Origin: Deltaproteobacteria bacterium | GTDB taxonomy: Bacteria; Campylobacterota_A; Desulfurellia; JAGGSF01 | Direction of reading: 5' to 3' | NCBI GenBank assembly: GCA_021159235.1 | Contig: JAGGSF010000080.1 | Location: forward strand, 1-40,051 | DNA: 40,051 nt | Shown: positions 21,365 through 33,882 of the stretch, one piece after another | Position numbering within the stretch: the first letter of the stretch is position 1 | How the letters are laid out: each line of letters opens with the position of its first letter | Position numbers and translations under genes: made by a program | Notes under the pieces: generated by a model | Seen by the model: the letters and a program-made list of their open reading frames with translations, nothing else | Databases searched by the model: none | Told to the model about the DNA's origin: nothing

Positions 21365-22495
21365 TTATAGATTATCAAGCTGTCTATAGGAAATTGCTTG
21401 TTCTGTGTTCATTGAAGTTTTTAGAAAATCATCAAACCAGTAAGCGTCTTTATTTGTTTTGAAAACCATAAGTTGCGATGCATTTTCCAGACCTGGAGAA
21501 CGATGATATTGCATATAGATGTGTTCTGGTGTTGTTCCCACTACTTCAATCTTTCCTGTGGAATGAGACATTATAAAGCGCGCCCTTCCAGCCAGACCGG
21601 AAACCTGCATCCTTGCTTTTCTAAATATCTCATAAGATTCAACTACTGGCACAGCATAAATTCTGTTTCCCAGTGTAGGGCGACACTGAAACACATAGTA
21701 TGAAGATACACCCATAAAGGAAAGTCTACGAAATAGCTCTGCTAAAGTATCAGGGTTATCGTTAACTCCTCTGATGAGCGGTGTTTGATTGACGACAACT
21801 GTACTTGCTTCTAACAGTCGTGTAATGGCGTCAATGCTGACAGGAGTTAACTCTCTGGGATGGTTGAAATTTGTCACTATATAGATGCGTTTTTGAGGTA
21901 AACTGTATCGGCTCAGCATTTCAATTAAAGATGGATCTTCTGTAATCCTGTATGGATTAAACGCAGGTATTTTTGTCCCTATACGAATAATCTTTACATG
22001 TTCAATGCAGCGTATCCTTTGTATAAAATCTTCCAGTTTTCTTGTAGACATAATCAGTGGGTCACCACCCGATAAGAGAACATTGGTAATCTCAGAATGA
22101 TTTCGGAGATATTGCATACTTGGAGAAACATTGTGAGTTACCTCACTATCTCCATTCATAAATAAGCGCTTACGAAAGCAAAAACGGCAGAATCCTCCGC
22201 ACATATTGTTGACAAGCAAAAGAGCTGTATCTGGATATTTATGTTCCAATCCTGCTGCTTTTACATAATGTGCCTCTTTGGAGGCATCGAGCCTGCCCCA
22301 TGGTATCAGTTCTCCTTCATGGGGAACAATTATCCGTCTGATAGGGTCATTTTCATTTGACCAATCAATTAAGGATAAGTAATAATCATTAGCCCTGAAT
22401 GCAAATTTTTTTGTAACCTCTTTTAATATTCGCCGTTGCTCAATGGGAATTTGAGTAACCTGCAGAATATCGGTAATATATCTAATCTTCTTCAC
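21365..22495 (-). CDS. KamA-family radical SAM aminomutase-like protein
   Basis: Radical SAM protein of the lysine 2,3-aminomutase superfamily, 376 residues. The start is a GTG at 22495 with AAGGAAG about 5 nt upstream. The [4Fe-4S] motif is Cys99, Cys103, Cys106 (CGGFCRFCFRKR), followed by LLSGGDPLIM (140-149). Known KamA and EpmB enzymes have a Gly-rich GGGGK region carrying the PLP-lysine; here the equivalent stretch reads MSHSTGKIEVVG with Lys315, so PLP binding may be altered. No efp gene is nearby, so an EpmB role is unsupported. Arginine is encoded by CGN about as often as AGA/AGG by my hand count, more than in the neighbouring trehalose genes. Substrate unknown. Confidence 0.75.
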   Translation of the reverse strand: MKKIRYITDILQVTQIPIEQRRILKEVTKKFAFRANDYYLSLIDWSNENDPIRRIIVPHEGELIPWGRLDASKEAHYVKAAGLEHKYPDTALLLVNNMCGGFCRFCFRKRLFMNGDSEVTHNVSPSMQYLRNHSEITNVLLSGGDPLIMSTRKLEDFIQRIRCIEHVKIIRIGTKIPAFNPYRITEDPSLIEMLSRYSLPQKRIYIVTNFNHPRELTPVSIDAITRLLEASTVVVNQTPLIRGVNDNPDTLAELFRRLSFMGVSSYYVFQCRPTLGNRIYAVPVVESYEIFRKARMQVSGLAGRARFIMSHSTGKIEVVGTTPEHIYMQYHRSPGLENASQLMVFKTNKDAYWFDDFLKTSMNTEQAISYRQLDNL

Positions 22496-22551: not shown

Positions 22552-22575
22552 ATTCATGGTTTTTATTAAAAAGAA

Positions 22576-22637
22576 TGATAACGCCCAAGCTCACCTATAG
22601 GAGCGGGATAGCGGTCAGGCGAAGCGTTTTGTTAGAT
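22576..22637 (-). other. attC-like palindromic recombination site (integron cassette end)
   Basis: On the minus strand the segment begins ATCTAACAAAACGC and ends GGTGAGCTTGGGCGTTATC, 62 bp in all. The outer ATCTAAC fits the R'' consensus RYYYAAC. The extra-helical-type AACAA next to it and the closing GGGCGTTA are characteristic of integron attC sites. The arms are imperfectly complementary (AACGC/GCGTT, ACC/GGT and an inner CTAT/ATAG). The end box GTTATCA deviates from GTTRRRY. The HD-GYP stop codon lies inside the left arm, as in gene cassettes. No integrase is in the window. Confidence 0.55.
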
Positions 22638-23289
22638 GTTTAATATTTTCAACAAAAAATGCAAGAAGTTCAGGGTCAAAGCAATGGCTGTTTTCTTTCA
22701 TAATCCGTAAGGCTGCTTCAGGCTTAAACGCAGGGCGATAAGGCCTGTTACTTGTTAGCGCATCATAACAATCGGCAATTCGGAGTATCCGCGCAACCAA
22801 GGGAATTTCATCCCCTTTTAATCCCTCGGGATAACCACTCCCGTCAAAATTTTCATGATGATATAGGATAGCATTTCCTATTAACTCATCAAAGAGTAAA
22901 GGCCTGATAAGATTATATCCCAATTTCGTGTGATGTTTAATCATGATAAACTCAGCTTCTGTCAACTTAGTCGGCTTATTTAAGATTTGTTCATTTATAC
23001 CCATTTTTCCAATGTCATGAAGCAGGCCTGCTCGATATATCACCGGAATCTTTTCTTTCGGAAAATTTAACTGGTGGTTTAAAGTAACAAAATTTACTGC
23101 CATCTTAGCTACATGTTCTGAATGTCCTTTCGTATACGGATCTCTTAATTCAAGAGCTCGAGATAGAAGGAGGGATGTTCGTTCAATTACTTCCGATAAC
23201 TCAATAACCTTCTTTCGTTCAATCTTTATTTTTTCTTGTTGCTCGGCGATGGTTTGTTGCTGCTCCCTTATTTTATCATGTTCAGTCAT
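22615..23289 (-). CDS. HD-GYP domain phosphodiesterase-like protein
   Basis: A 224-residue cytoplasmic protein with a Gln/Glu-rich coiled coil (about 5-38) and an HD-GYP domain (about 44-215), which in characterised members hydrolyses cyclic-di-GMP. Metal-site motifs are complete: GHSEHV (55-60), HDIGKMGI with His91-Asp92, KHHTKLGY (118-125), YHHENFDGSGYP (143-154) and ARILRIADCYDALTSNRPYR. A GAGGAG site is 9 nt from the ATG. There is no receiver domain, unlike many relatives. Its last codons (LTKRFA) lie within the attC-like site, and arginine codons are mostly CGN, so it may be an acquired cassette gene. Its own promoter sits in the 92-bp gap after otsB. Confidence 0.88.
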   Translation of the reverse strand: MTEHDKIREQQQTIAEQQEKIKIERKKVIELSEVIERTSLLLSRALELRDPYTKGHSEHVAKMAVNFVTLNHQLNFPKEKIPVIYRAGLLHDIGKMGINEQILNKPTKLTEAEFIMIKHHTKLGYNLIRPLLFDELIGNAILYHHENFDGSGYPEGLKGDEIPLVARILRIADCYDALTSNRPYRPAFKPEAALRIMKENSHCFDPELLAFFVENIKHLTKRFA

Positions 23290-23329
23290 GTTTCTATCTC
23301 CTCATAGCATTTAACTGTATAATTCACTC

Positions 23330-23365
23330 TTTAAAGCTACATTACTATTTAAAGCTACATTACTA
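23330..23365. repeat. Perfect 18-bp tandem duplication
   Basis: The unit TTTAAAGCTACATTACTA occurs twice head to tail (23330-23347 and 23348-23365) upstream of the HD-GYP gene. Read on the minus strand each copy holds a TAATGT hexamer, one of which is the candidate -10 of that gene. Confidence 0.95.
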
Positions 23366-23385
23366 TCCCTCATAATTTCTGTCAA
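23357..23385 (-). promoter_or_regulatory. Promoter of the HD-GYP gene
   Basis: On the minus strand TTGACA (23380-23385), at the very end of otsB, and TAATGT (23357-23362) are 17 bp apart. The -10 lies in one copy of the 18-bp tandem repeat, and the other copy falls in the leader. Confidence 0.5.
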
Positions 23386-24161
23386 GAAAAGCTCTTTAAG
23401 CACCTTAAAAACAATATAACTTCTTTGCTACTCCTACAGAAATAGCGGGCTTTTGAATATTTTTTATAACCGACTACGATAGATATATCATCTTCTCTCA
23501 GCACCTTAAATGCATCTTCATCCGTTCTGTCATCGCCTATGTAAATTTTTAATATTTCTTCTCTCAGATTAAGCAGATGTTTCATCTTTATTACTGCCTT
23601 TCCTTTATCCCAGTTGATATTTGGTCTTACCTCATAAACCTTTTTCCCGGAGGTTATTCTCAATGTCTCATGGTAGGGACCGATGATATTCTGAATGATT
23701 TTTTTTATATCCTTCGCAGGTCTTCCTGCGACATTGCGGTAATGAACACTTAAGGTCAGACCTTTGTCTTCAATCAGAATGCCATCTATTGTATTTAATT
23801 GTACCTTTAATTTTTTGACAACATTTTTTAGAAGGGGTTTTGTTCTCTCTGCCTCCGGATGCACCCAACAATGTTCTTTATAAGAAATTTCAAAGCCGTG
23901 ATTCCCGGCATATATTATACCTTCAATCCCTATGAGATCTTTCACTTCACTTAATGAGCGACCGCTGATAATACCTATGGAGATACATGGATTTTGGGAA
24001 AGATCGATCAAAAGCTTTCTTGTTTCAGGTGAAAGTTTAGCTAATGATGGGTCTTTGCAGATAGGCACCAGTGTTCCATCATAATCCAGGCACAACAAGA
24101 TATGTTTGTTTCTTGTTTTATTCTTTATTTCAGAGAAAGAGTTAAACAGATATTTTTTCAC
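23382..24161 (-). CDS. otsB: Trehalose-6-phosphate phosphatase
   Basis: Dephosphorylates trehalose 6-phosphate, the second step of the OtsAB pathway. The 259-residue HAD phosphatase has LCLDYDGTLVP with nucleophile Asp26 and Asp28, then IGIISGRSLSEVKDL. YAGNHGFEI and the final metal motif YIGDDRTDEDAFKVL follow. The start is a GTG at 24161 overlapping the treT stop (GTGA), with AAGGAAG further upstream, indicating translational coupling. It closes the otsA-DUF5752-treT-otsB run. Glucosylglycerol-phosphate phosphatases look similar, but the linked OtsA-type gene favours trehalose. Confidence 0.9.
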   Translation of the reverse strand: MKKYLFNSFSEIKNKTRNKHILLCLDYDGTLVPICKDPSLAKLSPETRKLLIDLSQNPCISIGIISGRSLSEVKDLIGIEGIIYAGNHGFEISYKEHCWVHPEAERTKPLLKNVVKKLKVQLNTIDGILIEDKGLTLSVHYRNVAGRPAKDIKKIIQNIIGPYHETLRITSGKKVYEVRPNINWDKGKAVIKMKHLLNLREEILKIYIGDDRTDEDAFKVLREDDISIVVGYKKYSKARYFCRSSKEVILFLRCLKSFS

Positions 24162-32341: not shown

Positions 32342-32584
32342 ATGAGGGTGGTAGTATTTACAGGTCCTGGATGCCCATGGTGTAAGAAGGTGAAAGATTA
32401 TCTAAAGAGAAACCACATTTCTTTTAAAGAAGTAGATGTGTCGAGAAACGCAAGTGCACAGAGAGATATAATAAGAATGACAGGACAGATGGGTGTTCCT
32501 GTAGTTCTAATCGGCTCAAGAGCTGTGGTAGGTTTTAATAAGAGTAAAATTGATAAACTATTAGGGTTGAGGAAACAGGCATGA
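32342..32584 (+). CDS. Glutaredoxin-like thiol-disulfide protein
   Basis: An 80-residue thioredoxin-fold protein of the glutaredoxin/NrdH-like group. The redox motif is CPWC (Cys11 and Cys14), followed by the cis-Pro loop [20 protein letters not shown], close to small YruB-type glutaredoxins of anaerobes. The ATG has a TGGAGG site. It overlaps paaK by 4 bp (ATGA). Reduction partner unknown; a link to the downstream ligase is positional only. Confidence 0.88.
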
Positions 32585-33882
32585 TCTACGATGATGAGAT
32601 GGAAACACTACCCCGGGAAGCATTGGAAGCATTGCAGTTGAAAAGATTGAAGGCACTGCTGGAGAGGGTCTATGCAACGGTGCCTTTTTACAGAAGGAGA
32701 TTTGATGAATGTGGTGTAAAACCGGAGGATGTAAACAGTCTTTCTGATTTAAGAAAATTACCTTTTACTACCAAGGATGATTTAAGAGAAAACTATCCCT
32801 TTAATATGCTTGCTGTGCCTATGGAACAGGTAATAAGAATTCATGCTTCAAGTGGAACCACAGGCAAACCCACTGTTATTTGCCATTCAAGAAGGGATAT
32901 AGAAATATGGGCTAATTTAATGGCACGCTCCCTTATGGCAACGGGGGTTACAAAGGGAGACAGTATTCAAAATGCATATGGATATGGTCTGTTTACAGGT
33001 GGCTTAGGTGTCCACTATGGAGCAGAAAAGATTGGAGCGGCGGTAATACCTATGTCGGGGGGAAACACAAAACTGCAGATACAGGTTATGCACGATTTCA
33101 AACCCACTGTTTTAACCTGCACTCCATCTTATTCTCTCTATCTGGGTGAGATGGCAGAGGAGATGGGCTACAGTAAAGATGATATTTATTTAAGAATAGG
33201 TGTTCTGGGAGCAGAACCGTGGAGTGAAGGTATCCGCAGACAGATAGAAGAAAAGTTGGGGATAGATGCTCTGGATATCTATGGATTGAGCGAGATGATG
33301 GGACCGGGGGTAGCCATTGAATGTAAAGAGGCAAAACACGGCTTACATATCTGGGAAGACCATTTTATCCCTGAAATTATCAACCCCGATACCGGTGAAG
33401 TTTTGCCAGAAGGTGAAGAGGGAGAACTGGTTATAACCACGCTTACTCGTGAGGCAACACCTCTTATAAGATATAGGACAAGGGATATCACCTCTATAAT
33501 TAAAGAACCCTGTATATGCGGTAGAACACACAGGCGTATTGCCCGTATCAGTGGAAGAACAGATGATATGCTGATCATAAGAGGAGTAAATGTCTTTCCC
33601 TCTCAGATAGAACAGGTGCTGATGCAGGTTGAAGGGGTAGAACCGCACTATCAACTGATATTAGACAGCGAAAAGGGTCTGACTACACTGGAGGTAAGGG
33701 TAGAGGTAAGTGAAGGTATTTTCTCTGACGAGGTGAAAAGATTGGAGAATTTGAAAAACAAAATTCAAGCAGAAATAAAGGAACACTGCATGATAACAGC
33801 AAAGGTGACCTTAGCAGAACCAAAGAGTATTGAGCGCAGTGCGGGTAAGGCAAAGAGGATAATTGACAGAAGAAAAACATAG
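32581..33882 (+). CDS. paaK: Phenylacetate-CoA ligase (PaaK family)
   Basis: Adenylate-forming enzyme that activates phenylacetate or related aryl acids with ATP and CoA. The 433-residue protein has the AMP motif [13 protein letters not shown] (88-100) and the PaaK-typical [63 protein letters not shown] and the C-terminal hinge [20 protein letters not shown] complete it. It is followed 9 bp later by a double-ACT gene, an arrangement common in anaerobes, often near indolepyruvate:ferredoxin oxidoreductase. In such settings it is thought to work on aryl acids from aromatic amino acid metabolism. Exact substrate unverified. Confidence 0.9.

Follow-up and report, generated by a model that had tools for sequence, protein, structure and literature searches.

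The window, that is, the whole stretch of 40,051 nucleotides analysed here, is contig C1 of a draft genome (1.13 Mb in 122 contigs, estimated to be 100% complete) from a small bacterium that is kin to Hippea, a hot-vent sulfur-reducer, and that probably belongs to the class Desulfurellia of the Campylobacterota. Its minus strand, on which all features of the window described below lie, carries in this order the genes for threonine synthase, otsA, a DUF5752 protein, a treT-like protein, otsB, an HD-GYP protein and kamA. The upstream flank of the HD-GYP gene is formed by otsB (trehalose-phosphatase, Pfam Trehalose_PPase; positions 23,382–24,161), and the downstream flank by a kamA-family radical SAM gene (21,365–22,495), which scores above the cut-off of TIGR00238. 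In both sister species (G001 and G002), otsB and kamA adjoin each other and encode proteins with 81% and 87–88% identity, respectively, to those of the window. The 66 bp that follow the otsB stop codon (23,316–23,381) contain an 18-bp tandem repeat of 2.3 copies (23,326–23,366). An Rfam scan of the window returned tRNAs alone and nothing at the 3′ end of the HD-GYP gene.

The HD-GYP gene (22,615–23,289) encodes a protein of 224 amino-acid residues that matches Pfam HD_5 (E 4.6e-37) and the solved HD-GYP phosphodiesterases 5z7c and 4mcw. The translation keeps the catalytic motifs HDIGK and HHENFDGSGYP (HHxxxDGxGYP), and the protein is a putative c-di-GMP phosphodiesterase. It differs from the solved enzymes in being a stand-alone domain with a short N-terminal coil and without a receiver or sensor domain, and the best relative found is only about 52% identical; among plasmid HD-GYP genes, every match has less than 60% identity. 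With the catalytic motifs and a Shine-Dalgarno-like GAGGAG (23,298–23,303) present, the gene is complete as judged from its sequence. It is co-directional with otsB, the cassette described below starting 66 bp past that gene, and a consensus scan directly upstream of the HD-GYP gene yielded no promoter-like or terminator-like site, which makes read-through expression likely, probably from the trehalose genes and not from an integron promoter. The codon usage of the gene deviates from its surroundings, as the earlier note on this DNA had pointed out: 9 of the 13 arginine codons are CGN, compared with 11 of 38 in otsA and 95 of 394 in the 15 other genes of the window (Fisher p = 0.001 for the latter contrast).

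A 62-bp element resembling an integron attC site (22,576–22,637) overlaps the 3′ end of the HD-GYP gene, and reads ATCTAACAAAACGC...GGGCGTTATC from 22,637 to 22,577. Its R″ box is ATCTAAC (22,631–22,637) and its R′ box, as now present, is GTTATCA (22,576–22,582), both assigned from the sequence and the model alignment; the crossover would lie at G^TT of the latter, whose TTATCA is then presumably host-derived. The crossover rule for integron recombination is GNT/GTTRRRY (PMC10127599). The TGA stop codon of the HD-GYP gene (22,617–22,615) falls in the left (L″) arm of the element, and the reading frame runs in the same direction as the attC site, which is the canonical orientation of a cassette. 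At the other end, GTTAAAT (23,309–23,315), which fits GTTRRRY, lies 26 bp upstream of the start codon, just before the Shine-Dalgarno sequence. The corresponding cassette unit, TTAAATGC...GGGCG, starts with TTAAAT at 23,314, ends at 22,582 with the G of the crossover triplet of attC and has a length of 733 bp. Circularization of this unit would restore an R′ box of the form GTTRRRY, in which GTTAAAT pairs at 6 of 7 positions with ATCTAAC of the R″ box. The positions of the stop codon and of GTTAAAT bear out what the earlier note had reported. That note had also described the element as an imperfect palindrome; its location and extent hold, but the palindrome is weak (see below).

The homology of the element is to genuine attC sites. 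A BLAST search with the element alone against 61 genomes gave matches in G018, G051 and G021 (E 4e-7, 3e-5 and 4e-5). Each of them is a complete attC site that has R boxes, an L stem whose L″ carries an extra A, and a terminal GTTA; these nearest sequence relatives have cassette-type genes directly upstream, and the G051 contig carries four attC sites in a row. Two covariance models were built with the window site left out. Model R1, trained on class 1 integron cassettes, a Thiolapillus plasmid array and the other three G051 sites, is nearly free of circularity, whereas R2, trained on a mixed set that includes the related sites, is partly circular because those sites were found via their likeness to the window site. 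Across the 40-kb window, the element is the top match of both R1 (23.5 bits, E 0.0013; runner-up 12.1 bits) and R2 (29.7 bits, E 3e-6; runner-up 12.0 bits), and over the whole genome it is the sole R2 match at E ≤ 0.1 (E 9.9e-5). These matches answer the call of the earlier note for a covariance-model search, and the models detected no other attC site in the genome. The element is single-copy: the genome holds neither a further copy nor an array, and no attC patterns of its family were found in viral contigs.

Folding energy does not add to this evidence. Compared with dinucleotide shuffles, neither strand of the element shows extra folding (z about 0 to +0.4). The bottom-strand z is about 0 for the window site, −3.75 for its relatives and −4.87 for aadA1, and a constrained attC fold gives −4 kcal/mol for the window site versus −18. 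A chance inverted repeat that closes an ordinary gene would account for folding at the shuffle level and for a single copy in the genome, but it leaves unexplained the BLAST homology, the matches of two models well above background, the coincidence of the element with a gene-content difference from the sister species (see below) and the finding that 14 of 25 scanned genomes of the class have no R2 match at E ≤ 0.1. A chance palindrome was rejected on the homology and the model matches, and we give it next to no credence. Since folding is at the shuffle level, the case for an attC site rests on homology, the models and context, and not on folding energy. The stable bottom-strand hairpin by which attC sites are judged is absent from the window site, which we read as probable decay; we do not propose a cassette that is mobile at present. 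Alignment with the relatives shows about 11 nt missing from the loop and the right arm. With this loss and with folding at the level of shuffled DNA, the site appears eroded and probably non-functional, and the cassette is probably immobile now.

Comparison with the sister species places the element at a difference in gene content. In these species kamA comes 69 and 76 bp after otsB, and the HD-GYP gene and the attC site are both missing between them; neither species has an HD-GYP orthologue. The earlier note had named as evidence against its reading the lack of a model match together with conserved HD-GYP synteny without the palindrome; the opposite was seen, both gene and site being absent from the sisters. 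The joint absence also bears on the possibility that the attC site is a real fossil beside which the HD-GYP gene arrived separately, by ordinary horizontal transfer. Of 80 HD-GYP loci from other genomes scanned with R2, none has an attC match, so the pairing is not recurrent, a point in favour of such a history; however, the stop codon within the attC site, the canonical direction, the GTTRRRY box just before the Shine-Dalgarno sequence and the joint absence of gene and site from the sisters all speak for a single unit, and separate arrival is very improbable.

The difference from the sisters exceeds the cassette. Homology extends up to the otsB stop codon and restarts at the kamA promoter, so that the 66 bp on the left, which have no match in the genus, and most of the 30 bp on the right between the attC site and the −35 box of kamA (22,552–22,581), which are mostly unalignable, are also unshared. 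Because of these unshared flanks on both sides, the empty site is not base-precise. Moreover, the window genome is the outgroup to G001 and G002, and gain in this genome and loss in the ancestor of the sisters therefore each cost one event; for polarizing the event by otsB, the rest of the class offered only homologues that share about 30% identity and belong to longer reading frames. The cassette could accordingly date back to the common ancestor of the genus, perhaps as all that was left of a small array, and the ancestor of the sisters could have lost it along with the flanking DNA. A single loss and a single gain are equally parsimonious, the extra unshared DNA on either side suits a deletion bigger than the cassette, and the attC site is old enough to have decayed. 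Such a deletion must, however, have ended right after the otsB stop codon and right before the kamA promoter, and the deviating arginine codons suit a later arrival; neither objection is strong, but we consider ancestral presence rather unlikely and favour gain in the lineage of the window. Even under ancestral loss, the element is an integron cassette, and its history alone differs.

The search for a source of recombinase within the genome, suggested in the earlier note, gave no intI gene above cut-off in the window or the 122-contig draft: the best match to TIGR02249 reaches 85.8 bits against a cut-off of 265, and the sub-cut-off candidates are low-scoring tyrosine-recombinase matches. We have good confidence that the locus is best explained as one 733-bp integron cassette with an HD-GYP gene whose chromosomal insertion separated otsB from kamA, in agreement with the cassette reading of the earlier note; the BLAST homology, the R1 and R2 matches, the 6/7 pairing of R″ and R′ in the circle, the stop codon within attC, the absence from the sisters, the deviating arginine codons and the lack of an intI gene above cut-off are grounds for it. 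In the scheme that we infer, which adds an integrase step, a direction (gain) and a later decay to the directly observed attC homology, cassette anatomy, absence from both sisters and lack of an intI gene above cut-off, the bottom strand of attC would fold within a circular cassette. An integron integrase, either acting in trans from another element or once present in the lineage and later lost, would then recombine the circle with a G^TT triplet of the genome, a site of the attG type or a secondary one. The resulting layout would be host-G / TTAAAT...ORF...attC-G / TTATCA-host, and a base-precise empty allele would read ...ATACAG^TTATCATTC.... Subsequent decay of the attC stem would have frozen the cassette in place. 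The imprecise empty site, the attC stem at the shuffle level, the outgroup position of the genome and its assembly in 122 contigs count against this explanation.

Insertion of cassettes at attG or secondary sites has reportedly been shown by experiment (Loot and co-workers, in 2024). Passages of PMC12444791 and PMC12901181 cite such insertion, and a passage of PMC10127599 deals with off-target activity. It would yield G^TT junctions and a single cassette with no attI, as at the present locus; unlike in those experiments, the event here is deduced from sequence alone, and the empty site lacks base precision. Among described arrangements, a single attC without an integrase is termed a SALIN and has been counted in Shewanella (PMC9229058; also PMC12690207). 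By this published definition the locus is a SALIN, with exactly one attC site in the genome according to R2 and no integrase above cut-off in the 122-contig draft. Like the SALINs of Shewanella, it combines one attC and one gene, is integrase-free and chromosomal, and is distant from any integron; it differs from them in its small genome from another host group, in the sister species with an empty site and in its eroded attC stem. With cassette arrays and CALINs (IntegronFinder 2.0, PMC9024848; archaeal CALINs, PMC9668308) it shares the attC anatomy, the orientation of the reading frame, the stop codon within attC and the GTTRRRY boundary, but it has one attC and no integrase. A CALIN was ruled out, as the term applies to two or more attC sites spaced no more than a few kb apart (two being the current IntegronFinder default; PMC9024848) and the 40-kb contig has one; a complete integron was ruled out by the lack of an intI gene above cut-off in the window or genome.

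The earlier note had called a solitary cassette unusual in such a genome. The cassette is indeed single, but SALINs are published, and attC sites without a working integrase occur in other genomes of the class. Among 25 class genomes, R2 found attC sites in 11 and no match at E ≤ 0.1 in 14. The sites mostly occur one per contig; G005 has nine, several of them deep within large contigs, and G007 has eight, and small attC arrays are present in G021 and on contig C81 of G007. The genes ending there encode, among others, isochorismatase, glyoxalase, HNH, HicAB and RAMA-domain proteins. The same hicAB pair with a related attC is found in G018 (C27, L165), G005 (C69, L161) and G015 (C171, L177), and in G018 and G005 a further attC-like end, missed by the models, lies just upstream. 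Sister species G001 has a single cassette of its own (C72, L205 2,703–3,762), in which a DUF4365 gene ending in attC stands straight after clpB; in the window genome this position has a different neighbour and the cassette is absent. G001 also carries an 89-bp tandem repeat of 3.4 copies built of small inverted repeats (C79, L217 155–453), and related pieces occur in G000 (C7, C51) and G002 (C40, C158). Plasmid pTBH13 of Thiolapillus brandeum (L156; 13.5 kb) has several attC-like sites between small genes, TIR-domain and caspase-family genes among them, and so resembles a cassette array whose cargo is of the defence type.

No intI gene above cut-off was found in the 25 class genomes. The sole intI-like gene beyond E 1e-60 among them is an interrupted integron integrase near a contig end in G005 (C14, L159, ~32,420–33,055; 240.5 bits, one internal TAA). 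Among the papers searched, none was found to name integron, attC and Desulfurella together. It is conceivable, although we hold it doubtful, that the class that includes Hippea (Desulfurellia) acquires cassettes mainly as scattered single G^TT insertions, the integrases being supplied in trans or having been lost time and again. If so, its small genomes would document, in nature, attG-type insertion and a subsequent decay of attC by which cassettes become fixed under host promoters.

The locus is a well-supported new case of a known relic type and not a new system, marked by sister species with an empty site, an unusual host and an uncommon cargo. Most of the complete integrons known are from Gammaproteobacteria. 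Here, a natural locus with cassette-free sisters is available in which a single cassette apparently joined the chromosome away from any integron, in a small, integrase-free genome. Such loci could show whether attG insertion shapes natural gene content and whether attC decay locks genes in, and a cargo of c-di-GMP signalling suggests that regulation, beyond resistance or defence, can move via cassettes.
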